42,500 nt of DNA from positions 1 through 42,500 of IMG/VR virus record IMGVR_UViG_3300020281_000047; one strand, written 5' to 3'. The notes below the pieces were generated by a model. It saw nothing but the letters and a program-made list of their open reading frames with translations. It did no database searches and was not told where the DNA came from. Below are positions 6,653 to 32,512 of this stretch, one piece after another; position 1 is the first letter of the stretch; each line of letters starts with the position of its first letter. The translations under genes and the position numbers were made by a program. Source of the stretch: a virus.

Positions 6653-7537
6653 ATGTCGTTCGAAACATTAAAACGCAATCGCGGTTCAAATATCAATAAA
6701 ATTATTCAAGCAGCTGAAGCCACTAACAGTGGTGAGACAAAATCTTATGTCGATGAGAGAATGTGGAAGCCAACTGTCGATAAGGCAGGTAATGGTTATG
6801 CTGTTATCAGGTTTCTCCCTGGTAAAGAAGATAGCCTTCCATTTATAAGATACTGGGATCACGGGTTTAAAGGCCCCACTGGTCAATGGTATATTGAGAA
6901 CTCACTAACATCAATAGGTCAACCTGATCCTGTAGGTGAATTAAACTCTAGGTTATGGAACTCAGGTATCGAGTCTGACAAAGATAAGGCTAGAGCTCAA
7001 AAGAGAAGACTACATTATGTATCAAATATCTATGTAGTAAGTGATCCATCTGCACCTCAAAACGAAGGTAAGGTGTTCTTATACAAGTATGGTAAAAAAA
7101 TCTTCGATAAAATTTATGACTTAATGAATCCATCATTTGCTGATGAGACACCAGTTGATCCATTTGATTTTTGGGAAGGTGCTGACTTTAAGTTAAAGAT
7201 AAGAAATGTTGAAGGTTATAGAAACTATGATAAATCTGAGTTTGCATCATCTGCACCATTCTTAGGTGAAGATGAGTCAAAGTTAGAAGATACTTATAAT
7301 AAGATGCATGACTTATCGGAGTTTACTAATGCTAAGAACTATAAGACCTATGATGAACTTAAGTCTAAGTTAATGAGAGTTCTTGGTGAGGAAGCAACCG
7401 CTGGTGCTTATACCGTAAAGGAAGAAATAAAAATAAATGATCCTATTGCGGCTGTCGAACCAGTTACTGCAGAAGAAATTAGTAGTGAAGATGAAGACAC
7501 TATGTCTTATTTCTCAAAACTTGCAAAGCAAGACTAA
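6653..7537 (+). CDS. 32: single-stranded DNA-binding protein gp32
   Basis: gp32 coats ssDNA during phage replication, recombination and repair. The N terminus (MSFETLKRNRGSNINKI) fits the cooperative-binding domain. The core includes GNGYAVIRFLP, GQWYIENS, VSNIYVVSDP, NEGKVFLYKYGKKIFDKI and FDFWEGADFKLKI, all aligned in order with T4 gp32; the acidic C terminus (EEISSEDEDTMSYF) is the partner-binding tail. The protein has no cysteine at all: the T4 zinc knuckle region is replaced by a SIGQPDPVGELN-type stretch, as in marine T4-like phages. CGGAG at about 6641 precedes ATG 6653. Its stop overlaps the stop of the convergent gene at 7534. Confidence 0.95.
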   Translation: MSFETLKRNRGSNINKIIQAAEATNSGETKSYVDERMWKPTVDKAGNGYAVIRFLPGKEDSLPFIRYWDHGFKGPTGQWYIENSLTSIGQPDPVGELNSRLWNSGIESDKDKARAQKRRLHYVSNIYVVSDPSAPQNEGKVFLYKYGKKIFDKIYDLMNPSFADETPVDPFDFWEGADFKLKIRNVEGYRNYDKSEFASSAPFLGEDESKLEDTYNKMHDLSEFTNAKNYKTYDELKSKLMRVLGEEATAGAYTVKEEIKINDPIAAVEPVTAEEISSEDEDTMSYFSKLAKQD

Positions 7538-9195
7538 GTAAGACCACCTAACATCTGGTCCTGTAGGTCAACTGCGGGACCATTTGATATTAAAGCATTG
7601 GTAGTATTACTATTACTTATGTTAGTATTAGTATCTGCTGAAAATGATACATTAGATCCACCCATAGCTCCTGGGCTCATTCCACGATTAACTTGACTTT
7701 TTATAGCATCACCAGAAGTAGACGGCTTAGTAAACGTTTGCGTAGGTCCACCTCTACCCATTCTCATTGAATCGCTTCCTGCAGGGCTTACTGGCATCTT
7801 AGGTTTAGCATCGCCACCTAGTAAAAATTCAGCAATTGATCCGGCTAGCGCTTTACCTCCAAAGTAACCTAATCCTGCTCCAAGAACACCACCTATACCT
7901 GTGCCAATCAATGGAAACCCCAATGTTCCTAAAGCGCCACCAATCAGACCTCCAACTTTCAAGCCTGCAACACCTCCTAGTAATCCACCAAAAACTTCAG
8001 TTAAAGCTTTAACTTTTTCACCTCTTGATGAATCTGAATTTAATATACTATAGATATCATATCCGGCCATAAGCTGTGCTATTCCGGGAAGTCTTAAGAA
8101 CTTTGCCATTCTACCAAATTTACCAGCAACACCAGATCCTTTTGGAACATCACCAACTTTAGATCCGGGAGGTGCTTTTACTGCTGTTGCTTTTCCATCA
8201 GCTCCAGCAATCATAAGATTTCCTTTTGCAGATCTAACAACTGATCCGGCTTGTGGTTTTGGAGTTGGTTTTCCACCTGCTTCCGGTGCGTCTTTAGCCA
8301 AAGCACCTGCACCAAATCCAAGACCAAGAGCACCTGCAGCTTTTGTAAGCACACCAAGAAGACCTTTTCTACCAGCTAATAAACCAAGAAGTTTTACAAA
8401 TTTCCCTGGCATTAAAAGAGCAGCAACCGCACCTAGAGTGGTTATTCCTTTTACGATGTCCATAGGTTCAAAGTCACCCTTGATTAACTTAGTAATAGAT
8501 TCAACTCCAGATGCTGCAGAATCACCTATGACTTTAAGAGCCTTAGCTAAACCTTCAGTCACTCCTTCTTTTGTTATCCCTAATGAATTAAATAAATTCA
8601 CAAAGCTTTCTTTAAATCTTATTATTGTTGGCTCTAATTTTTCTAATAAAACTTTCCCTTGTTCTTTTAGTGTGGTACCAAGTTCAGTCATTGCATTTTT
8701 AAAGTTTTCATTTTTCATAAGCGCGCCGATACCGGCACCTATAGCTGCACCTAATGGACCACCTACGGCAAATCCTATGGCACCACCGGTAAGACCACCA
8801 GCTAATGCATCTTTTATGGCTTGATTTTCAAATCCTTCAGGTAATAAAAATTCAACTATGTCATCGGCAAACATTGCTATAGCAGCAGGTCCTAATACTC
8901 TTGTCAATAGTTTTTTACCTATCATTGGTGCAAGAGTTGCAAGGCTAAGTCCTTTTAATGCACCAGATAATCCACTAAACATTCCACCACTAGAAGATCT
9001 AGTAGGAGAACTAGAGCCTGATGTAGCTACTGACTTTTGAGCCTGTGCTTTTTCTTCTCTTAATCTTTCTAAACTTCTATCTTCTTTTTGTTTAAGATAG
9101 TCGATAAATGAACCAATACCTCTACTGGTACTTTCAGTGTTATCATCGACTCTTGTTAGAGTATTATTGATGGTCGATAGTGTTACTTCTGCCAT
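7534..9195 (-). CDS. Gly/Ala-rich tail protein, possible tape measure or hub protein
   Basis: This 553-aa protein has an N-terminal charged coiled-coil-like helix (residues about 30-55, KQKEDRSLERLREEKAQAQK), a Ser-rich linker, then long Gly/Ala hydrophobic stretches (GGLTGGAIGFAVGGPLGAA, GGLLGGVAGLKVGGLIGGALG) like those of tail tape-measure proteins, and a polar, Asn/Ser-rich end. It is the last gene of the - strand operon after gp51, close to where T4 keeps gp27-28-29; T4 gp29 has 590 aa. A role inside the tail tube as tape measure, possibly with membrane-interacting segments, is therefore reasonable but is not shown by a specific signature. Start ATG overlaps the gp51 stop (TAATG). Confidence 0.75.
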   Translation of the reverse strand: MAEVTLSTINNTLTRVDDNTESTSRGIGSFIDYLKQKEDRSLERLREEKAQAQKSVATSGSSSPTRSSSGGMFSGLSGALKGLSLATLAPMIGKKLLTRVLGPAAIAMFADDIVEFLLPEGFENQAIKDALAGGLTGGAIGFAVGGPLGAAIGAGIGALMKNENFKNAMTELGTTLKEQGKVLLEKLEPTIIRFKESFVNLFNSLGITKEGVTEGLAKALKVIGDSAASGVESITKLIKGDFEPMDIVKGITTLGAVAALLMPGKFVKLLGLLAGRKGLLGVLTKAAGALGLGFGAGALAKDAPEAGGKPTPKPQAGSVVRSAKGNLMIAGADGKATAVKAPPGSKVGDVPKGSGVAGKFGRMAKFLRLPGIAQLMAGYDIYSILNSDSSRGEKVKALTEVFGGLLGGVAGLKVGGLIGGALGTLGFPLIGTGIGGVLGAGLGYFGGKALAGSIAEFLLGGDAKPKMPVSPAGSDSMRMGRGGPTQTFTKPSTSGDAIKSQVNRGMSPGAMGGSNVSFSADTNTNISNSNTTNALISNGPAVDLQDQMLGGLT

Positions 9196-14053: not shown

Positions 14054-15394
14054 ATGGAATTAGCTGCACAATCAAACACCGATTATTTAATAGTTGATGC
14101 TGTTATATCATCAACACGTAATAGTACAGAAGTTGATATAAGAACGTTAGTATCTGAATTTATTATTTATGAACATATTGAAAAACCGTATTTAACTGGT
14201 AGGCTAACTTTTAAAGAAGAAGAAAATATTTTACAAGATGTTGATTTCCAAGGCGGAGAAAAGCTTACTCTTACTATTCAACACATGGAAGAAACTGTAT
14301 CTGCTAATACTATTACAAAAGAGTTCTTAATTGATAAGATTGAAAATGTAGTAAGAGTTGATGAAAGAACTGAACTGGTAGTATTACACTTTACTGAATA
14401 TCATGTATTCGATTCATCTGCACAAAATGTTAATAAGTCATATGTAGGATCTCCTACTAGTATTATAAAAAAGATTACAGAAAGTTTCTTAGATAAAGAG
14501 GTTCTTATAGAAGGAACAGATGATGTAAGAGACATGAAGATAATAGTTCCAAACTATCATCCACTCGAAGCTTGTGCGTGGTTAAACAAGAGAGCAACTA
14601 CTAGTGATGGACTTCCTTTCTTTTTCTTTTCAACTCTTGGTACAGAAAATTTAGTTTTAAAAGACTTAGAAAAAATGTTAACGCAACAACCTATTAATGG
14701 TGAGCAACCATATATGTATGCACCTAGTGCTGGTGATGGAAATGAAAACACCAAAAATTATTTAATATCTAGTTATAGGTATGACTCGCAGGAAAACTTA
14801 TTAAAGATTATGAGAAACGGTCATGTAGGAGCAAAGTATGTTTTTCATGATACGTTTAAAGGTATACCTACAAATGTAGATTATGACGTTGATAATGTGT
14901 TTCAAACTTTAATAGGTAAGAACGCTCTCGGTGGTGAAAACTCTCGATACAATCATTCTCCTGAGTTTACAGTAAAAGGTAAAAAAATAGGTAATTATAA
15001 TTCAAAAATTGTATCACAAATTGCCTCTTCTGGTGCTTATGATACAGTAGGAACAACATTTAAAAGTTATCAAGATGAAAAAACTACAGGTGGTCAAACT
15101 AAAAAAATTAATAGAGAATCATTAAGAGAATTTTTAGTAAAAACTCCACTTGTAATTAAAGTAAAGGGAAGAGAATTTATTACAGGTGATGCAAACTATA
15201 CGATAGGTAAGACTATAAGAATTAGATTCTTGGACACCAATCCTTATTTAGATGATCAAAACGCAAAGTTTGATTTGAAAAAATCCGGAGATTATCTTAT
15301 AATGACAGCTAAACATGTTTTTTCAGATGAAGCAGTTACTACTGAACTTACATGCGGGAGAGTAGCGTCATTAGGCGTGGAGGTTGAATTATAA
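14054..15394 (+). CDS. 27: baseplate hub subunit gp27
   Basis: At 446 aa it is somewhat longer than T4 gp27 (391 aa). Tell-tale segments are the opening DAVISSTRNSTEVDIRTLV, EHIEKPYLTGRLTFKEEENI, and the second tube-like domain with FHDTFKG. gp27 forms the trimeric torus to which the gp5 spike attaches and links it to the tail tube. ATG starts immediately after the gp53 stop and the gene overlaps the gp5-like start by one base, so hub genes 27 and 5 are translationally coupled. Confidence 0.85.
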   Translation: MELAAQSNTDYLIVDAVISSTRNSTEVDIRTLVSEFIIYEHIEKPYLTGRLTFKEEENILQDVDFQGGEKLTLTIQHMEETVSANTITKEFLIDKIENVVRVDERTELVVLHFTEYHVFDSSAQNVNKSYVGSPTSIIKKITESFLDKEVLIEGTDDVRDMKIIVPNYHPLEACAWLNKRATTSDGLPFFFFSTLGTENLVLKDLEKMLTQQPINGEQPYMYAPSAGDGNENTKNYLISSYRYDSQENLLKIMRNGHVGAKYVFHDTFKGIPTNVDYDVDNVFQTLIGKNALGGENSRYNHSPEFTVKGKKIGNYNSKIVSQIASSGAYDTVGTTFKSYQDEKTTGGQTKKINRESLREFLVKTPLVIKVKGREFITGDANYTIGKTIRIRFLDTNPYLDDQNAKFDLKKSGDYLIMTAKHVFSDEAVTTELTCGRVASLGVEVEL

Positions 15395-16251
15395 TGGCAA
15401 ATTATTACGGTGATGAAACTAGATGGTTCATAGGATATGTCGTTAATAATGTTGATCCTTTAAAACTTGATAGAGTCAAAGTAAGGATAATTGGCATACA
15501 TACAGATAATACTGAAGATATTCCTGATGATGATTTACCTTGGGCGCAAGTTGGTGTGCCAGTAACTGAAGACGGTAGTTCTGGTCAAGGCGCAAACTCA
15601 CAATTAAAAATAAGAGCACAGGTCTTTGGTGTATTTCTTGATGGAAAGAATTCACAACTTCCTTTGGTGTTAGGTTCTATTCCAAAGATTGAAACAAATA
15701 CAAATTCAATTGATGAATCACTGCCTTCAGTGTCAATTCCTATTGATGGAAATACTAATATTGAAAAGGCATTTAATTTTTTCATATCACCTGAAGGTGG
15801 TCAATTTACACCTCAACAAGCTTGTGGCATGATTGGAAACTTTTGTGTGGAATCTGGAGCAACTGCAAACAGAGGTGATATTAATCCTGCAGCAGTATCT
15901 GGATTTAAAGATGAAGGATCATTTGGAATAGCACAATGGAATCCTGCAAAGAAAGCAGGTAACAGATTTGGTGAGCTTCAAAAGTTTGCTGGTAGAATAA
16001 ATAAAGATTACAGAGATATGGAAACACAATTAAGATTTGTTAAACATGAATTAGAGACTCTTCCATATTTAGGAATGGGTCAACTAAGACAAACAACTAC
16101 ACTTAAAGATGCCACCATAGTTTTTCAAAATAAGTATGAAAGACCAAACAAAGATCTTGCGCACACAGATCAAAGAATAGCATTTGCACAAGAAACAATG
16201 AAAAAACTTGGCACAGGTGTTGATGATGATCCTATCAATCCTGAGGAGTAA
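15394..16251 (+). CDS. 5: gp5-like hub protein: OB fold plus tail lysozyme domain
   Basis: Residues 1-105 form the gp5 N-terminal OB fold (WFIGYVVNNVDPLKLDRVKV, DDLPWAQVGVP, GVFLDGKNSQLPLVLGSIP). From about 118 to 270 comes a domain of the phage tail lysozyme type (Phage_lysozyme2-like): AFNFFISPEGGQFTPQQACG, MIGNFCVESG with Glu153 as a probable catalytic acid, NPAAVSG and GSFGIAQWN, then QLRFVKHELET. This replaces the GH24 lysozyme of T4 gp5. There is no C-terminal beta-helix; that function is encoded in a separate gene at 18515. The protein should cleave peptidoglycan locally during DNA injection. GAGGAG near its end serves the next gene. Confidence 0.85.
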   Translation: MANYYGDETRWFIGYVVNNVDPLKLDRVKVRIIGIHTDNTEDIPDDDLPWAQVGVPVTEDGSSGQGANSQLKIRAQVFGVFLDGKNSQLPLVLGSIPKIETNTNSIDESLPSVSIPIDGNTNIEKAFNFFISPEGGQFTPQQACGMIGNFCVESGATANRGDINPAAVSGFKDEGSFGIAQWNPAKKAGNRFGELQKFAGRINKDYRDMETQLRFVKHELETLPYLGMGQLRQTTTLKDATIVFQNKYERPNKDLAHTDQRIAFAQETMKKLGTGVDDDPINPEE

Positions 16252-16256
16252 AATAT

Positions 16257-18512
16257 ATGGCTAGTGAAGAATTTAATCTTAATGGAAAAGCTTTTGCCTT
16301 TGGTATAGGACCCATAGGAAAAAATCGCAAATTTGATGGAACGGTATTTTCTTTTGCTCCTGAAGATAAAGGCAGAATAACGAAAATTATTGAAGTCAGA
16401 GCAGGAGCAAATAGCTTAAGTCAGTCTCTATTAGAACAAGGAATAGGCTATACTTTTAATGGAACTTCGGTAACATTAGTCAATGGTGGTGTAAATTACT
16501 TAAGAATTGAATTTGAGAGAGAATCTACTCAAGATGAATTTCTTGAAGCTACAAAAAATGCACCAATCTTAAGAGATGTACAAGCCTTAAATATTTTTCA
16601 AGCTTCTGGAGGTTCAGAAGTTGCAACTGTTAAAGTAGAACAAATAAAAAATTCTGTTATGAAAAGTTCTTTCTTTCAAAACCCCGGTGAAAAAGTTTCT
16701 GGGTTTTTAAATTTCGGAGTAACATCGAAGCCGTCTAAAGATTTCGTTAAGAGTCCAATGCCTGTTATACTACAAGAAGATGCCGGTGATGGATCGGCAA
16801 CGGCCTCTTCTCCTAATGCTAGTAATCTGGTTAAATTATTAAAAAAGAAAATGAACTCTATAAACTTAAACAAAGTTGAAATATGCAATGGTACTTTAGA
16901 TGATATACAAAAAAGTTTAACAAGAAATACTCCGGGATTAAAGCCAGCAGCTCGAAAAAATTTGCTATCAAATAACTTTATGCCAGCAACTGTAAGCGTA
17001 AAAGTTTTAGCAAAAGTTGAAGAGGCAGTGGCTGATAAAGAAGAAGGAAAATCGCCTGAAGATATTATTGGTGCAAAACAAAAGGAAGTAACTAAAGCAA
17101 GAGCTCAGTTGTTTGGTAACTGTGCATTTAATTTAGGAAAGATTGGTGATTTAGTTCCTCAAGCAGGAAGGTCTTTTGCAAATATACAACCAAATATGCT
17201 AGCTACTGCAAAAGGAATTCCGTGTTCTACTGACATAAATAAAGCTATTTCAAATATTCCTGATGGAGTTACCATACCACCTGCACAAAAAGGACAAATC
17301 GTTGAAAAATTAATGAAAGGCCAAGATGCTACTACTGGTAAAGTTGATTTTAGTACTAATATGAATAAAGCACTTGCCAAAGGAACTTTAACACCTGACA
17401 TGACACCAAACATTGGAAAAGAAGAACAAAGTGCTTCGACTTCAGCATCTACCTTTAATGGATTTCTCACACCTGATGATTATGTATTTGAAACCATAGG
17501 ATCAAAGGTTAAGTTACTAGATTATTTTCAAGGGAGTACCAGATGTAATAGTAAAGGACCAAATGCTCCAACACAATTAATTGTTGATTATACTACTGAT
17601 GATTATATTTTTGCTAAAGATGCAAAGGGTTTACAGAAGTTAAACAAAGAATGGAATTTAGAAGATACAATAGAAGAACAAAAAAGCAAATTAAATGCAA
17701 CAGAGGCTAGTGCTGCAGCTCGTAAAATTCTTGAAACAGAAGGTACTACGAAGAAATTTGGAATACAAGCACACTTTGTTGTAAAGAGAGATGGTACTAT
17801 ACAAAAGGGTAGACCGCTTAATGAGATAAACAATGAAGATTTTTTTCCAGAGAGATTTAATAAAATGATCTATGTTGTTATAATAGCTGGTGAAACAAAT
17901 CCTGTAACTCCTCAACAAGCCACAGCTATTGATGATATTATAGCATTTGCTTATGCCACCATGCCACAAATTTATGTGCTTGGTATTAGTGAAATTGATA
18001 CTGAGACGGTTGCACCGGGAATAGATATATCTGCTATTAGAGCAAAATATAATAAAATAATATTAGGAGGATCGTCATTAGAGGTATTAGATCCGGGTGG
18101 CAAATCAAGAGAAGAACTTGCTGTTGTTAAGTCACCTGAATTCGTTAAATCTGTTCCTACTAAACTCGGTGACATAGAAAAAATAAATCCAAGTAAAATT
18201 ACAAAAGAATTTGAAAAGATTGATGAAACTACTGGTCTAAAAAAACCAGTAAATATTGATGAAGCTTCAGCTGAAATGAAATCAAAAATAAAAGAAATAC
18301 AATCAGGAAATATTGATGTTCAAGGTAACTTAGATGCCGCTAAAACAAAGGCTCGAGGTGAAGCAAGTAAAATTATAGGTGATAATAATGCTAACGCGCT
18401 TTTTAATAAACTAGATGGAACTATGGGTGATGTTGATGGTCTTATTAAAGATTTAGATGTCAATAAAATTGATGATTTAACAAACAGTATAAAAGATGCC
18501 TTTGGAGTATAA
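16257..18512 (+). CDS. 751-aa hub-region protein with degenerate amidase-like domain
   Basis: A large protein between the two halves of the gp5 function. The N terminus is a small beta domain (about 1-90). The middle is low in features. Residues about 435-600 resemble the amidase_2/PGRP fold: APTQLIVDYTTDD at the first strand, GIQAHFVVKRDGTIQKGRP as the central hairpin, YVVIIAGE, TPQQATAIDDI, then IYVLGISEIDTETVAPGID. Zinc ligands expected at the first strand (His) and in the GH and CPG positions read D, GI and APG, so it should not hydrolyse peptidoglycan. The tail (650-751) is helical and charged. It may bind glycan or act structurally in the spike. GAGGAG at about 16243 supports ATG 16257. 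Confidence 0.75.
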   Translation: MASEEFNLNGKAFAFGIGPIGKNRKFDGTVFSFAPEDKGRITKIIEVRAGANSLSQSLLEQGIGYTFNGTSVTLVNGGVNYLRIEFERESTQDEFLEATKNAPILRDVQALNIFQASGGSEVATVKVEQIKNSVMKSSFFQNPGEKVSGFLNFGVTSKPSKDFVKSPMPVILQEDAGDGSATASSPNASNLVKLLKKKMNSINLNKVEICNGTLDDIQKSLTRNTPGLKPAARKNLLSNNFMPATVSVKVLAKVEEAVADKEEGKSPEDIIGAKQKEVTKARAQLFGNCAFNLGKIGDLVPQAGRSFANIQPNMLATAKGIPCSTDINKAISNIPDGVTIPPAQKGQIVEKLMKGQDATTGKVDFSTNMNKALAKGTLTPDMTPNIGKEEQSASTSASTFNGFLTPDDYVFETIGSKVKLLDYFQGSTRCNSKGPNAPTQLIVDYTTDDYIFAKDAKGLQKLNKEWNLEDTIEEQKSKLNATEASAAARKILETEGTTKKFGIQAHFVVKRDGTIQKGRPLNEINNEDFFPERFNKMIYVVIIAGETNPVTPQQATAIDDIIAFAYATMPQIYVLGISEIDTETVAPGIDISAIRAKYNKIILGGSSLEVLDPGGKSREELAVVKSPEFVKSVPTKLGDIEKINPSKITKEFEKIDETTGLKKPVNIDEASAEMKSKIKEIQSGNIDVQGNLDAAKTKARGEASKIIGDNNANALFNKLDGTMGDVDGLIKDLDVNKIDDLTNSIKDAFGV

Positions 18513-18514
18513 AA

Positions 18515-20542
18515 ATGGCAATTGAAAATAAAACAACTAACAGAGTATTACCAAGAGGTATTCAAAAAGCAAATGGTTTTGATGATCCTAATGAAGCATA
18601 TCCTAAAAAGAGTTTCTTAAATTCTCCTTCTGTAAATGAAAAAGCAAGAGGTACGAAAAAAGTTAATGTAGAACTCGGCGGTGGTAACGCCGATCTTGAT
18701 TTAGAATTAAAAGATGAACCGGCATCTATATATCCAAATAGCCAAGTTAAAGAGACATCATCAGGCCACATTATAGAATATGATGATACTCCAAATGCCG
18801 AACGTATAATGATACGCCATAGAACTGGATCAGGTGTAGAAATGCGTGCGAATGGAACTATGATATATGGTTCAGTAGGTAATACAATAAAAGTTACTGC
18901 ACAAGACGAAAAGGTTATAGTTGATGGAGATGGCGAATTACATTATAACGGAAACTTAAAATTAAAAGTTGCAGGTGATTTTGATTTAGAAGTTGGTGGT
19001 GATTTTAATTTAAGAGTTGATGGTGATGTTGATCAGACTATTAAAAGAAGTTATAAACAAGATATAGGAAAAAGTAAAGAAGTAAAAATTATAGAAAGCA
19101 GATCAGAAACTATAGGTATAGATGCAACTACATTCATACATGGTAATAGCACAAATACGATTAAAAAAACAAACAGTATATTTGTTGGAGAAGATGAAGC
19201 ACACAATGTTGGTGGCACATTATTTATGACTGCAGAAAATGAAGTTTCATTATCAACAAAAAGTATAAATGCCACTGCATCTTCACTTGCAGTGCTAGGT
19301 GATAGCGGAACGATAGGTGGAACAAACATGGTTTACTATGGTCATACGGCTCGTATACCAAGAATTAATGCAACTTCTGTTCATGCTACACAAGGTGTGA
19401 TTGCCGATGTTGGAATGACTGCACCAACATTTAATGGTAATTTATCAGGTAATGCTAGTACAGCAGGAAAGTCTGCAGTTGCTACAGCATTAGGAGCTGG
19501 CGCTGGTAGTGCACAAGGCACAGTAACTATTACACCTGCAGCTGATTCAGATACATTAGAGCCAACAACTTCGGTCTTAAATGAATTATTAGAAAAATCT
19601 ACAGTTGCTATAAAACGTGTTGCTATTGATACTTTTGGTGGATTATTTGATAGGCTTAATAGAAAAACTCATTATGGTGGACTATCAACTACAGATTTAA
19701 CTACTCGTCAAGTGAGATCTAAATTAAGAGATCCTAATGCTCTTAATAATGAAAAGTTTACAAATGCGTGTCAAGCTGAAGGTGTGTTATCACCATTCTT
19801 TACAAGACAAGCTATATTGACAACTGATAGGATTGTTTCAGGCAAAAAGAGTTTAAGAATACCGGATTCAGTTATAGGCAATCCTGATAAACCCATGGAA
19901 AGATTCAAAGGTGAGCCTATAAGTGTAAAAACAACTGAGGCTCTACCTGAACCGAACTTTAATCCTGTGTTTCAAGACAATATTACAAGTAGAACAAGAC
20001 TGGCACCGGGTATCACTATGGCTACTTTCTTAGGTGGTGCTGGAGATCCTGTTACTTTAACTCATATACTTGATGATAATGTCAGATTAAAACTTGCGAA
20101 ACAATATACGTTACATGCAAGAGTTTTAAGATCTGTTAACTCATATACTGCAGTTAGAGAATTTAAAGATTTTAGATTACAAGTAGTAGAAGGATTATAT
20201 AGGGCAGAAGAAGGTGAAGAGTTAGATGTTAGTGATGGAATTAATTACTTAATGTCTAGAGGAAGAGCCGTTGTATATGAATTAATTAATATGAAAGGTG
20301 AGATTGCTATAGAAAAAACATTTGACTTAGCCGTATATTTAAAAGACACACTTAACTTTGAAAGGCTTATTTTGGATTATGACAACTACAATCCAGATGG
20401 ATCATTAAATGCTCAAATTATAATAATAATGCCTGAGATAACACCTCCATGGACTGTGACATACAAAAACGAAGTTGAAACTAGATATAATAACTTTTCT
20501 CAAGTAACAAATGAGCTTATGGAAGCGTTACCTACTACATAA
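18515..20542 (+). CDS. beta-helix spike protein with degenerate M15-like C-terminal domain
   Basis: Residues about 125-265 repeat short strands with Gly/Asp turns (VAGDFDLEVGGDFNLRVDGD), the beta-helix pattern of the gp5/VgrG spike needle. Before it is a short beta domain with RHRTGSGVEMRANGTMIYGS, as in gp5 C-terminal regions. Residues about 525-645 look like a peptidase M15_3 domain: FRLQVVEGLYRA, GINYLMSRGRAVVYEL at the S-x-H...A-x-D site, LKDTLNFERLILDYDNY, and NAQIIIIMPE at the W-x-H-V-S site. All three zinc ligand positions appear changed. I infer a spike subunit with an inactive peptidase module. It follows the 751-aa gene by two bases and precedes the gp25 late promoter. Confidence 0.8.
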   Translation: MAIENKTTNRVLPRGIQKANGFDDPNEAYPKKSFLNSPSVNEKARGTKKVNVELGGGNADLDLELKDEPASIYPNSQVKETSSGHIIEYDDTPNAERIMIRHRTGSGVEMRANGTMIYGSVGNTIKVTAQDEKVIVDGDGELHYNGNLKLKVAGDFDLEVGGDFNLRVDGDVDQTIKRSYKQDIGKSKEVKIIESRSETIGIDATTFIHGNSTNTIKKTNSIFVGEDEAHNVGGTLFMTAENEVSLSTKSINATASSLAVLGDSGTIGGTNMVYYGHTARIPRINATSVHATQGVIADVGMTAPTFNGNLSGNASTAGKSAVATALGAGAGSAQGTVTITPAADSDTLEPTTSVLNELLEKSTVAIKRVAIDTFGGLFDRLNRKTHYGGLSTTDLTTRQVRSKLRDPNALNNEKFTNACQAEGVLSPFFTRQAILTTDRIVSGKKSLRIPDSVIGNPDKPMERFKGEPISVKTTEALPEPNFNPVFQDNITSRTRLAPGITMATFLGGAGDPVTLTHILDDNVRLKLAKQYTLHARVLRSVNSYTAVREFKDFRLQVVEGLYRAEEGEELDVSDGINYLMSRGRAVVYELINMKGEIAIEKTFDLAVYLKDTLNFERLILDYDNYNPDGSLNAQIIIIMPEITPPWTVTYKNEVETRYNNFSQVTNELMEALPTT

Positions 20543-20569: not shown

Positions 20570-21013
20570 ATGCCAGTAAGAGCTTTTTCAATAGAGGATG
20601 GAAACTTAGGAAGTAAGACTATACTTACTTCTCGTACAAAAGTATCTAAAGACATTGACTTATCATTTGCTAAAAAGCCATCTGGCGATGTATTTAAAAA
20701 AACAGATGCAGCTGCTGTGAAACAGGCAGTTAAGAATTTATTACTTACAAATTTTAGTGAGAAACCTTTCCTTCCAAGATTTGGTGGAAACTTAAACTCA
20801 TTATTATTTGCACTTAATACAGATATAGATGATGAAGATTTAGAAGAACAAATAATAAATGCTATTGAAATATATGAGCCTCGTGCAAGAGTTACTAACA
20901 TAAGTAGTAATCTAAATGATGATCAGCATCAAATAAAAGTTACAGTAACTTTTAGAGTAGTTAACACCAATGAAACTGTAACTACAAATATAGATTTAAC
21001 AAGGTTAAGATAA
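20570..21013 (+). CDS. 25: baseplate wedge subunit gp25
   Basis: A 147-aa gp25 homologue (T4: 132 aa) with the lysozyme-like fold shared with type VI secretion TssE. The conserved motif EPRARV near residue 105 is the gp25/TssE core contact loop, preceded by PFLPRFGGNLNSLLF and followed by the final strands IKVTVTFRVVNT. gp25 joins gp6 and gp53 in the wedge and helps start sheath assembly. It has its own late promoter and overlaps the gp6 start by one base (TAATG). Confidence 0.93.
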   Translation: MPVRAFSIEDGNLGSKTILTSRTKVSKDIDLSFAKKPSGDVFKKTDAAAVKQAVKNLLLTNFSEKPFLPRFGGNLNSLLFALNTDIDDEDLEEQIINAIEIYEPRARVTNISSNLNDDQHQIKVTVTFRVVNTNETVTTNIDLTRLR

Positions 21014-26184: not shown

Positions 26185-29100
26185 ATGGCAACCAATTTAA
26201 CTGAAACCACCTTTCCAAGTACGTATAAAGATGATTTTGCCGATAGTGCAAACTTTCATAAGATACTTTTTAATTCAGGTAAAGCACTACAAGCAAGAGA
26301 ATTAACTCAATTACAAACAATATTACAAGACCAAATATCAAAATTTGGTAATAATATATTTAAAGAAGGTGCCGTTGTAAAACCGGGTGGTGCAACAATC
26401 AACCAAAAATATGAGTTCATAAAACTTAATACTACTCTAAATACTCTTCCTACTGATACATCAACATTAGTAGGCACTTCCTTTACAGGCCAATCTTCTG
26501 GTGTTATAGTTAAAGTATTACAGGTAGTGGCTGCAACTGGATCCGATCCTGACACATTGTATGTTCAGTATACTAATACAAGTTCCGGCTCTGCAGGAAC
26601 ATCAACAATAAGAATGACAGCTGGTGAAGATATAAACAATGGATCTATCACATTAACTGTTCAAACTACAAATACCGCTACTAATCCAGCAACCGGAGTT
26701 GGAATATTAATCACACTATTATCTGGTGTCTATTATGCTCGCGGTCATTTTGTATTCACCGAAGATCAATCAAAAATAATTTCAAAATACACTGATGTCG
26801 CAAATACTAGTATAGGATTTAAAGCTGTTGAATCTATTGTTACTGCTGTTGATAATGAAGCATTATTTGATAATCAAGGTGCGGTACCAAATCTCACTGC
26901 ACCGGGTGCAGATCGATACAAAATTGAGTTAACTATTGTCGAAGAAAGCGATGTTGATTCAGATGAAAACTTTATACATGTAGCCACAGTTAAAGATGGT
27001 GTAATTTATAGTGCAGTTAGCCCGAATGATGCATATAATGTACCTAATGAAGTTGTCGCTAGAAGAATATTTGAAAACTCAGGTGACTACTTTGTAAAAC
27101 CATTTACTGCAAGATTTACTTTAGACTCTGCAACAACACACTTAAATTTAGAAGTTAGCCCCGGAACGGCAGTTGTTGAAGGATTTAGAGCATCAAGAGA
27201 CTTTCCTACAACTTTAAGAATAAGCAAAGCAACTGATACTATAACTATTAACAATGATGTTACTGGCACGGACTTTGGTAACTATGTTTTTGTAGATAAT
27301 GGTACATTTGGTGATTCTGCCGCATTCGGCTTGCCAAATATTAACGTATTTGAAAAGTTGGACTTAAAAGATGGACTTGATTATACAGGATCAACTATTG
27401 GTACAGCAAGAGTTAAAGCAATAAACGAAGATGGCACTAATTTAAGATACCATTTATTTGATATACAAATGAATAGCGGTCAAGCTTTTAGAAATGTTAA
27501 GAGTATTGGAACAAGTACATCAAGTTATTTTAGACCTACACTTGAAAATAGTAAAGCTGTTTTAAAAGAAACATCTAGGAACACATCATTATTTGCCTTG
27601 CCTCGTATAAGACCCCAATCACTGACTGATATTTCTTTTGCAGTGCAAAGGCGTTTTACTGCAACTTCTAATGGATCAGGTCAAGCTTCAATATCACTTT
27701 CAGCTACAGGAGAGACATTTACCAACACCGATGATTGGATTGTAGGAACAGATAGTGATGTCTATTTAAATGCATCAATATCAGGAACTGGTAGTACATC
27801 AGCTACTTTAACTGGTTTACCAGCAAGCCAAGCAGTTGAAATACTTGGTTACGTTAATAAAAGTCAAGCTACAATAAAAACAAAAACATTAACCTCACGT
27901 TCAATAACAGTTGGAATTGATTCAGATGGAAATGGTCAAAAATTTGTACCGTTATCTAAAGCTGATATATTTGATGTTGAAGAGATACTAAAAGCTGGTG
28001 ATAGTAATGTTAGTTACGCAAACAGATTTACGCTAGATGATGGACAAAGAGATAATCACTATGCATTAGGAAGATTATTACTTAATGCTGGTCAAAGTGC
28101 TCCAGCTGCATCACCCGGTGTATTCGTAAAATTTAGACACTTTGAACATGGTGTTTCAGGTGATTTCTTTGCAGTTAATTCATATACCGGTCAAGTTACT
28201 TATGATCAAATACCTAAGTATAGATTTTCAAATGGAACTAGGGTGAGACTATATAACTACTTAGACTTCAGATCAGTTATGGATTCAGCTGGAGAATTTT
28301 CTTCTAGTGGAACTGGAGCGAGAGCAATTGAACTTCCTCAACCAACTTCTTTAGTAACAGCTGATGTAACTTACTTCTTACCTCAAGCTGGAAAATTAGT
28401 AATCGATAAAGATGGTATCATAAGAACAGTTTTTGGTCCATCAGGATTTGCTGCAACTAGTCCAGTAAAACCTGCAGGAACATTAGGCTTATACGATTTT
28501 AAGTTAAATGCAAATACATTAAACGATTCAGACATTAAAATGACTAAAATCGAACATAAGCGATTTACTATGAAAGATATTGGTCTACTTGAAAAACGAG
28601 TTGATAAGTTAGAAGAAGTGGCAACATTAAGTGCATTAGAACTTGATACAAAACACTTTCAAGTGTTAGACTCTGCAGGAAATGACAGGACTAAATCTGG
28701 ATTCTTTGTTGATAATTTCTTAGATGCATCTCTTTCTGATACTAGAACAACAAACTATAGAGCTGCTCTTGATCCTCTTGAAAACACCATAAGGCCTGCT
28801 TTTACTGAAGATAATATAAGATTAATTTATGATTCAGCATCATCAACTAATACTATAAGAAAAGGTGATAACATTTACATAGCCTATGATGAGGAACCTT
28901 ATATAAATCAAAATTTAGCAACAAAGTCTATAAACATAAATCCTTTCTCAGTAGTCATATATGAAGGCGTTGTAACATTATCACCTGCTTCTGATGAATG
29001 GAGAGATGTTACAATTAATTCAGAAAGAACTATTGCTGGTGGCTCAAGACTAAGTACAAATTCTGCATATAACTGGGGTAACTGGGCTTGGAACTGGGGT

Positions 29101-30180
29101 GGAGTTCCAGTAGAAAACTTAGGTATAGGAAGTAGAACAAATAATATCGGTGGTACAGTAAATAGAGTCGTAAGTTCAGAAACAGTTCTTGATGTTGTGG
29201 AGGATAGAGTAATACAAACTGCGTTACTGCCGTTTGCGAGATCAAGAAAAGTATTCTTTAAAGCTGATGGATTAAGACCAAACAGTAGAGTGTTTCCAAT
29301 ACTTGATGGTAATAACATAAGTGATTTTACGAGATCAGAAACATTTCAATTTTATTCTGATTATGATTCAGATTTTGGTAATACGTTGAAAGGATTAACT
29401 GCACATCCAGACGGGTCAACAAACTTAACTACTGATGCTAATGGTTCAATATCGGGTTCTTTCATAATACCAAGTAATGATACATTAAAAATAAGATGTG
29501 GAACGCGTGAGTTTAAACTTTTAGATGTAAGTATAGACAATGAACAAGGTGCATCAATTATAGCTAAAGCATCTTATACCATGTTAGGATATTTAGATAC
29601 AGTTGATAGAACTTATGCCTCAACTCGTGTATTAAATGTTCAAGGTTATAGGCCACGTGATAATGCTACTTATGATACTTCAGATAATTCAGGAGATGGT
29701 GGACGAGGACAGTCATTATCAAGAAATAATCAGTCTGGTATCGATGGTCATTGGAGTGTCCAATCTTTTGGAAACCCAGGTGTTGGTAACGAAATTGATG
29801 GTCCTAGCCAAGGTACTAGTGGAAATACTGGTGATCCAAACGGCGGTGGCGGCGCATCAGATGTCGGTGGAGAAGGTGGTGGCTCAGGCGGCACAGGAGG
29901 CACATACATTTGTACTGCTACATTTAATGCCAACTTAATCGACTTTAAACAGTTCAGAGCTTTATCAGTTTACGGTGAAAAGTTAAGACGTACTGATAAA
30001 CATTTAATGAAAGCTTATGATAAGATCGGGCCATGGGTTGCTAAAAAGATGCCAAAGAAGATTGCAAGAAAATTTTCAAGAGCTTACCTATCGGCTCAAT
30101 ATAATAATCCATCAATGTTCTATAAGTTAATAACAGTCACATCACGACCAATAATGAGGTTCATAGGAAGGTTTTTATAA
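26185..30180 (+). CDS. large DUF4815-type virion structural protein, 1331 aa
   Basis: The N-terminal region (FPSTYKDDFADSANFHKILF, GKALQARELTQLQTILQDQI, IFKEGAVVKPGG) matches the DUF4815 virion proteins of marine T4-like phages. The long body is beta-rich with YYARGHFVF and GFRASRDFPTTLRI segments and a coiled-coil-like stretch near 800 (KDIGLLEKRVDKLEEVATL). Near residue 1220 a Gly-rich linker (GGGGASDVGGEGGGSGGTGG) leads to a basic helical end domain (FRALSVYGEKLRRTDKHLMK) of about 90 residues. It is probably a baseplate-proximal fibre or wedge protein in the position of T4 gp10. Its stop overlaps the desaturase start. Confidence 0.8.
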   Translation: MATNLTETTFPSTYKDDFADSANFHKILFNSGKALQARELTQLQTILQDQISKFGNNIFKEGAVVKPGGATINQKYEFIKLNTTLNTLPTDTSTLVGTSFTGQSSGVIVKVLQVVAATGSDPDTLYVQYTNTSSGSAGTSTIRMTAGEDINNGSITLTVQTTNTATNPATGVGILITLLSGVYYARGHFVFTEDQSKIISKYTDVANTSIGFKAVESIVTAVDNEALFDNQGAVPNLTAPGADRYKIELTIVEESDVDSDENFIHVATVKDGVIYSAVSPNDAYNVPNEVVARRIFENSGDYFVKPFTARFTLDSATTHLNLEVSPGTAVVEGFRASRDFPTTLRISKATDTITINNDVTGTDFGNYVFVDNGTFGDSAAFGLPNINVFEKLDLKDGLDYTGSTIGTARVKAINEDGTNLRYHLFDIQMNSGQAFRNVKSIGTSTSSYFRPTLENSKAVLKETSRNTSLFALPRIRPQSLTDISFAVQRRFTATSNGSGQASISLSATGETFTNTDDWIVGTDSDVYLNASISGTGSTSATLTGLPASQAVEILGYVNKSQATIKTKTLTSRSITVGIDSDGNGQKFVPLSKADIFDVEEILKAGDSNVSYANRFTLDDGQRDNHYALGRLLLNAGQSAPAASPGVFVKFRHFEHGVSGDFFAVNSYTGQVTYDQIPKYRFSNGTRVRLYNYLDFRSVMDSAGEFSSSGTGARAIELPQPTSLVTADVTYFLPQAGKLVIDKDGIIRTVFGPSGFAATSPVKPAGTLGLYDFKLNANTLNDSDIKMTKIEHKRFTMKDIGLLEKRVDKLEEVATLSALELDTKHFQVLDSAGNDRTKSGFFVDNFLDASLSDTRTTNYRAALDPLENTIRPAFTEDNIRLIYDSASSTNTIRKGDNIYIAYDEEPYINQNLATKSININPFSVVIYEGVVTLSPASDEWRDVTINSERTIAGGSRLSTNSAYNWGNWAWNWGGVPVENLGIGSRTNNIGGTVNRVVSSETVLDVVEDRVIQTALLPFARSRKVFFKADGLRPNSRVFPILDGNNISDFTRSETFQFYSDYDSDFGNTLKGLTAHPDGSTNLTTDANGSISGSFIIPSNDTLKIRCGTREFKLLDVSIDNEQGASIIAKASYTMLGYLDTVDRTYASTRVLNVQGYRPRDNATYDTSDNSGDGGRGQSLSRNNQSGIDGHWSVQSFGNPGVGNEIDGPSQGTSGNTGDPNGGGGASDVGGEGGGSGGTGGTYICTATFNANLIDFKQFRALSVYGEKLRRTDKHLMKAYDKIGPWVAKKMPKKIARKFSRAYLSAQYNNPSMFYKLITVTSRPIMRFIGRFL

Positions 30181-30950
30181 TGAGAAGAATATTTGAAAGT
30201 TCTGGAATAAAATTAAGATTACTGCTTTTACTTAATGTATTTGCATCAGTATCTTTTATTTTATTTTATGGAATGACTTTAACTAATATAGTTACCGTAA
30301 GTGCAATGTATTTTTTATTCATGGCAGTAGGAATGGTTTCAACTTTTCATAGATTTTATTCACATAAATCATTTGAATTTAGAAATAAATTTTTAGAATA
30401 CTTTTGTACATCATTAGGTTTACTATCAGGATCAGGTTCAGTGTTTGGTTGGTGTGCAGTTCATAATAAGCATCATGATAAACATGACACACCTGAAGAT
30501 CCTCATGATCCAAATAGAGGCTTACTAAGTTTATTAACATTAAATTATGATTATAATATTGAATTAAAATACGTTAAGTACTTATTTAAAAATAAATTTC
30601 TTATGTTTACTCATAAGTATTATTACTTACTAATAATATCATATATCGGATTACTTTATTCGTTATTTGGTCTTCAAGGTATAATTTTCGGATTTTGCAT
30701 GCCATCTGCATTATGTGTGGTTGGGCAGGGTATGACAACATATTTCTTACATAAAGATGGAAATCCGCAGTGTGTGCGATGGATGAATTTTTTAGTATTT
30801 GGAGATGGCAATCACAGTGAGCACCATCAAAACACTAAGAAATATAAGTTAAAATATGATGACGTATCAGGCTGGATCATAGAAAACTTATTAATTAGTA
30901 GTAGTATAAATATAGCAGATGCTGTGAAAAGGAATTACAAATGGCAATAA
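30180..30950 (+). CDS. membrane fatty-acid (acyl) desaturase
   Basis: A 256-aa integral-membrane diiron desaturase of the stearoyl/acyl-lipid delta-9 type. All three histidine boxes are intact: His57-x4-His62 (HRFYSH), His95-x2-His98-His99 (HNKHH) and His212-x2-His215-His216 (HSEHH). Hydrophobic spans lie at about 12-32, 38-56, 150-172 and 175-195. It would introduce a double bond in host acyl chains, raising membrane fluidity. Desaturases are known auxiliary genes of marine cyanophages. The unusual point is the location: it overlaps the DUF4815 gene (TAATG) and the next virion gene (10 bases), so it is expressed late with the baseplate genes. No truncation is visible. Confidence 0.9.
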   Translation: MRRIFESSGIKLRLLLLLNVFASVSFILFYGMTLTNIVTVSAMYFLFMAVGMVSTFHRFYSHKSFEFRNKFLEYFCTSLGLLSGSGSVFGWCAVHNKHHDKHDTPEDPHDPNRGLLSLLTLNYDYNIELKYVKYLFKNKFLMFTHKYYYLLIISYIGLLYSLFGLQGIIFGFCMPSALCVVGQGMTTYFLHKDGNPQCVRWMNFLVFGDGNHSEHHQNTKKYKLKYDDVSGWIIENLLISSSINIADAVKRNYKWQ

Positions 30951-32512
30951 CCACTCTCGGATATCAAGTAAATAAACAACCTATAGCTCAATCGTTTTAT
31001 ATTAACGAAAGAAACGGAATATATTGTACAAAAGTTGAATTATTCTTTGCAGCAAAAGATGCATCATTGCCGGTTCAAATACAAATAAGACCAATGATTA
31101 ACGGTTTTCCATCTTCTAATAAAATCATACCAGGGACTACAAAAATGTTACCAGCTGGTAGCGTTAATGTTGATACAACAGGTCCTGCGCTAACCTCAAC
31201 AGTATTTACATTTGATGAACCAATATTTTTAAAAGGACAGGAAGATTATGCTCTGGTTGTAATAGCAGATTCGAAAGACTATAGAATTTATGTTTCTGAA
31301 ATTAATGAATTTCAGTTTGGTTCAACTGAAAGAAGAGTTAACAAACAACCAGACTTAGGTAGCTTATTCTTTTCACAAAATGGTGTTACTTGGACTGCAT
31401 CACAAAATGAAGATTTAGCATTTATTATACATCAAGCCAAATTTAAACACACATCAGCAACCGCCATATTACACAATGCTTCAGTGCCAAAAAAGAAACT
31501 TTTACCAGATCCCTTTACAGTTGTATCAGGTGATGCAACCGTAACAACTAAACATATAGGCCATGGATTACAAGTTGGAAATGCTATTGAAATTTCAGGT
31601 GCCACTGCAACTGGAGGAATAAGTGCATCGAGTTTGAATGGTAGAAGAACAATTACTCATGTTGACTGGACAGGATATAAATTTGAAGCTGATTCGGCAG
31701 CAGACTCTGATGCGATAGCTGGCGGTTCTGCAGTATTAGCTACAAAAAATATTCCATATAGTTTAATTTATCCTATTACACAAACTATAATTCCAAGAGA
31801 CACCGACTTAGCTTCGTCTATTAAAGCAACCACTGGAAAATCTTTTGCTGGAACAGAAACATCATTTCAAAAACAATCTACATTTCAAGGTGTAAAGCTT
31901 AATGAAAATAACCAAGCAGCTGAACCATACATAATTGCATTTGACAGCGCTGAAACTGCTGAACTTGGTGCTGGTGTTAAATCATTTGATATGCAATTAA
32001 AAATGGCGACTGCAGACTCAAACGTATCACCTGTTATTGACTTACAAAGAACTTCAATATCATTAGTTAATAATCTAATTGATAAGCAAGATTCATCTTC
32101 AACATCTGGTTTTAACGTACCTTTAACATATATCGATGAAACATCAGCAACTGGTGGAAGTTCTGCTGCAAAACATTTAACAAAAGTAGTTACACTTGAA
32201 AATGATGCAGTTGGTCTTAAAGTTTTATTAACTGCCAATAGGCCAAATGGAACAGATTTTTTACTGTATTTTAGAACCGGCACAGGTGATGAAGTCTTAA
32301 ATGAAAAACCTTTTACTTTACAAGCACCTGAAACCACTCTACCTACTGATGAAAATACACAAGTATTTAGAGATTATAGATACTTAATAGGTGGACAAAA
32401 TGGAGTCTTACCTGCATTTACTAAGTTTCAAGTAAAAATTGTGTTTAGAAGTATTAGTAGTGCTAAGGTTCCAAGAATTAGAGACTTAAGGATTATTGCA
32501 TTGAGTGTATAA
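30941..32512 (+). CDS. virion structural protein, 523 aa
   Basis: A 523-aa beta-rich protein. PIAQSFYINERNGIYCTKVE, IQIRPMINGFPSSNKIIPG, YALVVIADSKDYRIYVSE and SLFFSQNGVTWTASQNEDLA form a block I associate with marine T4-like virion proteins next to or fused with the DUF4815 protein. Here it is a separate gene behind the desaturase, with AAAGGA inside the desaturase end as ribosome binding site. The C terminus (FTKFQVKIVFRSISSAKVPR) is beta. Probably a baseplate or fibre attachment protein. Confidence 0.78.
   Translation: MAITTLGYQVNKQPIAQSFYINERNGIYCTKVELFFAAKDASLPVQIQIRPMINGFPSSNKIIPGTTKMLPAGSVNVDTTGPALTSTVFTFDEPIFLKGQEDYALVVIADSKDYRIYVSEINEFQFGSTERRVNKQPDLGSLFFSQNGVTWTASQNEDLAFIIHQAKFKHTSATAILHNASVPKKKLLPDPFTVVSGDATVTTKHIGHGLQVGNAIEISGATATGGISASSLNGRRTITHVDWTGYKFEADSAADSDAIAGGSAVLATKNIPYSLIYPITQTIIPRDTDLASSIKATTGKSFAGTETSFQKQSTFQGVKLNENNQAAEPYIIAFDSAETAELGAGVKSFDMQLKMATADSNVSPVIDLQRTSISLVNNLIDKQDSSSTSGFNVPLTYIDETSATGGSSAAKHLTKVVTLENDAVGLKVLLTANRPNGTDFLLYFRTGTGDEVLNEKPFTLQAPETTLPTDENTQVFRDYRYLIGGQNGVLPAFTKFQVKIVFRSISSAKVPRIRDLRIIALSV

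Follow-up and report, generated by a model that had tools for sequence, protein, structure and literature searches.

Does the spike of this phage end in a peptidoglycan hydrolase that has lost its active site, and if so, why is the domain kept? The window, the whole stretch of DNA that was analysed, is an entire virus record of 42.5 kb, and the genome it represents is a fragment. It encodes a T4-like baseplate cluster in the order tail tube cap (from 11952), OB domain with Phage_lysozyme2, amidase-like protein, spike, gp25, and gp6 (from 21013). The original prediction, made from the letters of the sequence, saw a degenerate M15-like domain at the end of the spike protein, an inactivated amidase-like domain next to it, and one active lysozyme.

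The spike is of the gp5 type: trimerisation repeats are followed by the C-terminal domain, upstream of gp25 and gp6 (Table 1). The three strings on which the domain had been recognised (VEGLYRA, SRGRAVVYEL, and NFERLILDYDNY) are present in this ORF at the place claimed. The domain had been located at 20080-20440. That place is correct, but the real domain is larger and has the limits given in Table 1. We number its residues from window position 19931.

Table 1. Features of the spike gene and its neighbours (window coordinates)
Feature	Position	Strand	Evidence or state
OB domain with Phage_lysozyme2 (tail lysozyme)	15394..16251	+	Pfam 5.8e-26; alignment
Amidase-like neighbour	16257..18512	+	Amidase_2-like stretch about 17544-18056; orthologues with intact Amidase_2
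Whole spike ORF, gp5-type, 675 aa	18515..20542	+	Pfam Gp5_trimer_C 1e-8; phrog_430 9.7e-32
Parts of the spike ORF			gp5 C-terminal trimerisation/beta-helix, about residues 65-300; linker, 300-472; M15-like domain, 473-675
M15/Hedgehog-fold domain without catalytic site, spike residues 473-675	19931..20539	+	AF2 model, hhalign, dN/dS
Codon of the only conserved His (H45), off the ligand positions	20063..20065	+	His in 100/104 relatives
Zinc ligand 1 codon (H of SxH)	20252..20254	+	Met here (Y106-L107-M108); M/A/L/K/S/R in 104 relatives, never His
Zinc ligand 2 codon (D of GxAxD)	20273..20275	+	Val here (V115); V/Y/A in 104 relatives, never Asp
Catalytic Glu position codon (LLEY)	20375..20377	+	D149; Asp 103/104, Ser 1/104
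WxH strand, third zinc ligand, codons N160-A161-Q162	20408..20416	+	no His in the window; strand order of control model
gp25-like baseplate wedge gene, first downstream of spike	20570..21013	+	Pfam GPW_gp25 7.8e-14

Two other places in the window deserve mention. Two ORFs (26185-30180 and 30941-32512) match successive, non-overlapping stretches of phrog_358 (2056 positions), and the 256-aa ORF between them (30180-30950) is unmatched; the matching ORFs are perhaps a split large gene. A 553-aa ORF on the minus strand (7534-9195), adjoining a gp32-like ssDNA-binding gene, weakly matches tail tape measure families.

The Pfam model for Peptidase M15_3 (PF08291, gathering cut-off 23.2 bits) did not match the window domain even at an E value of 10, and the same was true of all 40 family members scanned. 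HMMER searches of the domain against Pfam, PHROGs, and PDB sequences returned only chance-level matches. A match to HslV at 0.0036 in a single-sequence search vanished when a profile was used. Against 50,697 phage records, tblastn at its sensitivity gave no relative, or weak chance matches only. With PF08291 silent, the homology is visible only by profile-profile and structure comparison. When 104 relatives of the domain were aligned by hhalign with 77 M15 domains (mostly spike-type, plus a few endolysins), the two families were collinear over residues 16-186 (144 columns, P 3.1e-6; global, 9e-7). The score of 43.2 was not reached by any of 300 column-shuffled controls, for which the maximum was 26.8. 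The reversed alignment scored 13.0. When the amidase and OB proteins from the same cluster were aligned instead, the P values were 0.3 and 0.14. Landmarks in the domain and in M15 pair as LAPGI..FL with LSPNF..L, GRAVVYEL with GEAVDIQF, and FDLAVYLKDTLNFERLILDY with YFEVAKWIKDNLPYDQFLLEY. At the level of profiles, a remote homology to intact spike-type M15 domains is supported.

Structure prediction agrees with this assignment. An AlphaFold2 model of the domain built with 40 relatives (alignment A1) had a pLDDT of 89.4 and a pTM of 0.88. Its top VIA-align match was the zinc DD-peptidase 1LBU (Z 6.3, rmsd 4.4, 131 residues aligned), followed by about 30 Hedgehog chains (Z 6.1-4.7) and then by LysECD7, ChiX, LysB4, Ply500, MepA, and VanX; Z values below 8 are weak support if taken alone. 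Foldseek found nothing significant in the PDB (no E below 0.1). A search of viral models in BFVD gave pf16 gp5 at an E value of 2e-8 and further viral matches to 1e-6, and the matches named Peptidase M15A had a probability of 1.00. As a control, an intact spike M15 domain (L123, 40 sequences, alignment A4) was folded in the same way. It reached a pLDDT of 96 and matched 1LBU at Z 12.5, and the same Hedgehog and endolysin list came after. The two models have their main elements in common, in the order E-H-E-H-E-H-E-E-E-E. The predicted models place the domain in the M15/Hedgehog fold superfamily, and its best solved-structure matches are of that fold, as for the intact control. A T4 gp53-type (LysM-like) identity, suggested by gene position, was dropped after the structure search.

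The catalytic site of M15 is not present in the domain. The SGYR motif reads E87-G-L-Y-R91, and none of the 104 relatives has either the His of ligand 1 or the Asp of ligand 2, whereas all 77 comparison domains have both (75 by pattern and two regex misses, L274 and L227, by eye). The R, S, H, D, E, W, and H of the M15 site are among the residues invariant in the 40 sequences of A4. Because the intact and window models share their element order, the WxH strand can be placed on N160-AQII; profile alignment instead puts the third ligand at PPW174-T-V176. Column 162 holds Q, C, S, or N in the relatives, with His in 4 of 104. Neither alignment (NAQ or PPWTV) gives the window protein a His at any ligand position. 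The loss of S-x-H, A-x-D, and W-x-H read in the original prediction therefore stands under both, and the His-Asp-His ligands plus catalytic Glu/Asp expected of PF08291 are not found. At R91, Arg occurs in 70 of the 104 relatives (K, I, Q, D, or V in the remainder), and D151 is invariant. H45 sits in an N-terminal arm (GDPVTLTHI) and has no obvious role. There were no half-degraded intermediates among the 77 comparison domains, which are mostly spike-type. With the site lost in all 104 relatives and no intermediate, the loss predates the whole sampled group. This supports a loss that is ancient and family-wide, beyond the window phage alone.

Intact versions exist in isolated phages. The gp5 of pf16 combines an OB domain, the spike, and an intact M15 in one chain, and the single chain of Cr30 includes Phage_lysozyme2 as well. 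Melnitz divides these parts: its OB protein, which matches VanY weakly, is distinct from the spike-M15 protein encoded upstream of gp25/gp6. In Peetri, Astolliot, and two Vibrio phages, PAAR-M15 proteins are encoded near or immediately before gp25. The window domain takes the same genomic place as these intact M15 domains.

Relatives of the window domain are encoded at 79 IMG/VR loci. Ten close relatives gave a median dN/dS of 0.028 in the domain, compared with 0.079 in the spike and 0.064 in the linker, and about 20 columns are invariant among 40 relatives. The domain is under tighter constraint than the spike carrying it, and a ratio this low marks a maintained part and not a relic. At many loci (for example, L029), the spike ends at about residue 465, and an overlapping or adjacent ORF of about 200-220 aa encodes the domain on its own. 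The domain is fused to the spike in 35 of 96 tree rows; in the other 61 it has its own gene, located between those of the spike and gp25. The tree requires five switches between these states, at least four of them on well-supported branches. Therefore, the domain behaves as a unit, and spike fusion is one of several ways to deliver it. This suggests that it functions either as an independent protein or joined to the spike. Where it is fused, its C-terminal place suggests a position at the tip, although the 170-residue linker could fold back. One scan of bacterial genomes found the domain in two MAG contigs, labelled Euryarchaeota (L293) and Bacteroidetes (L294), at 70 and 54% identity. These are probably viral contigs binned into MAGs.

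In the window, the amidase-like protein retains none of its three zinc ligands (D444, I577, and A586 stand in their places), and the OB-linked lysozyme keeps a catalytic-type Glu153 (GNFCVESG), which, from family knowledge, we take to be the catalytic residue. For the hub gene cluster, the original inventory (two hydrolases inactivated, one lysozyme apparently active) is thus supported by sequence and predicted structure. Most loci have an amidase-like orthologue upstream of the spike. Those of L072-L079 and L157 are intact Amidase_2 domains (H, H, D), with E values of 9e-11 to 3e-15 where scanned. The window clade retains the lysozyme Glu, whereas L072-L079 and L053 have lost it. The 100 loci with both genes, several of which overlap on one contig and hence are not independent, include 84 with the lysozyme Glu and a dead amidase and 9 with an intact amidase and the Glu lost. 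In the remainder, both sites are lost in three (one clade) and both are intact in one (L170), one has an incomplete ORF (L032), and two are L204 and L215. Judged by these residues, the lysozyme and amidase usually appear to be reciprocally live or dead across loci. Tentatively, the hub cluster might be seen as three hydrolase scaffolds (OB lysozyme, amidase, and spike M15), of which one of the first two is usually alive and the dead ones are kept structurally, so that folds would be interchangeable and catalysis reciprocally lost.

A few loci have other arrangements. All three hub hydrolase sites look dead in L053, L150, and L151 (lysozyme Glu to Lys, amidase N-A-A, and a dead M15-like domain). 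In L204 (1802-4525) and L215 (1905-4541), OB and a dead amidase form one protein of ~900 aa, in which Pfam detects the OB domain only. Both loci have an intact M15-like motif stretch (GSIRHDEGLAADIH..GIHVDMW and RHDEGLAADIH..GIHVDMW) in place of the lysozyme. One genome that carries the dead spike domain (G011) also encodes a separate, intact M15_3 endolysin-like protein.

We consider it likely that the domain is a non-catalytic, M15-derived part of the hub or spike, that is, a pseudopeptidase. Its ancestor would have been an active M15-type zinc peptidase at the distal end of a gp5/PAAR spike in T4-superfamily phages, as persists in pf16, Cr30, Melnitz, and the PAAR-M15 phages. The zinc ligands would have been lost in the ancestor of the marine group, and the domain retained as a fixed part without catalysis, most likely as a docking module. 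Its conserved fold surface may hold a partner, which could be a second protein of the hub or a part of the cell envelope that the spike encounters. Docking is one of several possible non-catalytic roles, a structural one among them, and of docking taken alone we are much less sure. The usual view is that spike hydrolases breach the wall during injection, and peptidoglycan cutting would here fall to the lysozyme on the OB protein. With a live lysozyme alongside, the M15 site would be dispensable but the fold would not.

The old cleft might instead hold a wall peptide or envelope ligand uncut and so seat the spike before the lysozyme acts. This is a special case of the pseudopeptidase explanation, set apart for its different predicted partner. 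The domain has the fold and place of active wall peptidases, an acidic residue at the Glu position in nearly all relatives, the invariant D151, and Arg at position 91 in most of them. In M15 enzymes, the SGYR Arg helps to hold the substrate. However, R91 is not conserved and the ligand positions are hydrophobic (V115 and M108), and we regard such binding as rather unlikely. It is very improbable that the domain remains enzymatic through a new catalytic site made from H45, D39, E87, Y90, Y116, D149, and D151. Several acidic or aromatic residues and one His are nearly invariant, but H45 and D39 are in the N-terminal arm, in lower-confidence blocks (pLDDT 72-76) that are distant in sequence from the mapped M15 site. 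Moreover, a second conserved His is absent, and the adjoining lysozyme offers activity.

Lost catalytic residues would also fit a decaying, functionless relic awaiting deletion. That explanation is rejected by a dN/dS below that of the spike, and the invariant columns and the many loci where the domain has its own gene also argue against it; we give it almost no credence. Nor do we put much weight on a chance resemblance, in which the domain would be an unrelated alpha/beta baseplate protein. The Foldseek search of the PDB and the HMMER search for Pfam M15, neither of which gave a significant match, are what such a protein would have produced. However, it would not account for the profile-profile result (P 3e-6, 0/300 shuffles), the BFVD match at 2e-8, the one-to-one order of strands and helices, or the genomic position shared with intact M15 domains, and it is extremely unlikely.

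As a pseudopeptidase, the domain would illustrate clearly how a cell-wall peptidase can become a lasting component of a contractile injection machine, apparently without catalysis; the group of marine T4-like viruses that carries it is widespread. It also cautions against calling hub proteins lysins on the strength of fold by itself: lineages differ in which of two hydrolases of this cluster looks alive. Isolated phages have intact versions at this place, so that the gain and the loss of spike enzymes are open to direct tests.

We found no report of a pseudo-M15 domain in a phage hub in the open literature, which is not proof of absence, and the word phage does not occur in a review of pseudopeptidases (PMC11266112). 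The Hedgehog N-terminal signalling domains described there are pseudopeptidases of the M15 superfamily, and their partner HIP binds at the pseudo-active site (PMC11266112). As proposed for the window domain, they have turned the M15 fold to protein-protein docking (PMC11266112). However, Hedgehog retains three zinc ligands and the window-domain family retains none. The amidase-like neighbour is in the same hub cluster and, in the window lineage, also has no zinc ligands, but it belongs to a different fold family and its loss is not family-wide, since it is intact in L072-L079 and L157. The PAAR-M15 proteins (from Peetri, Astolliot, MIJ3, and the Vibrio phages 1.244.A and 207E48.1) likewise carry M15 on a spike-tip protein, but PAAR repeats replace the gp5 beta-helix and the active site is intact. 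The gp5 M15_3 domains of pf16, Cr30, and Melnitz (L119, L132, and L131) share with the window domain the C-terminal position on the spike, the hub cluster, the fold, and the landmarks LSPNF..L and YDQLLLEY. The position upstream of gp25/gp6 is also common to the window, Melnitz, and Cr30 (where seen). These three phages keep R, SxH, D, E, and WxH, whereas the window domain has kept the scaffold without any zinc ligand.
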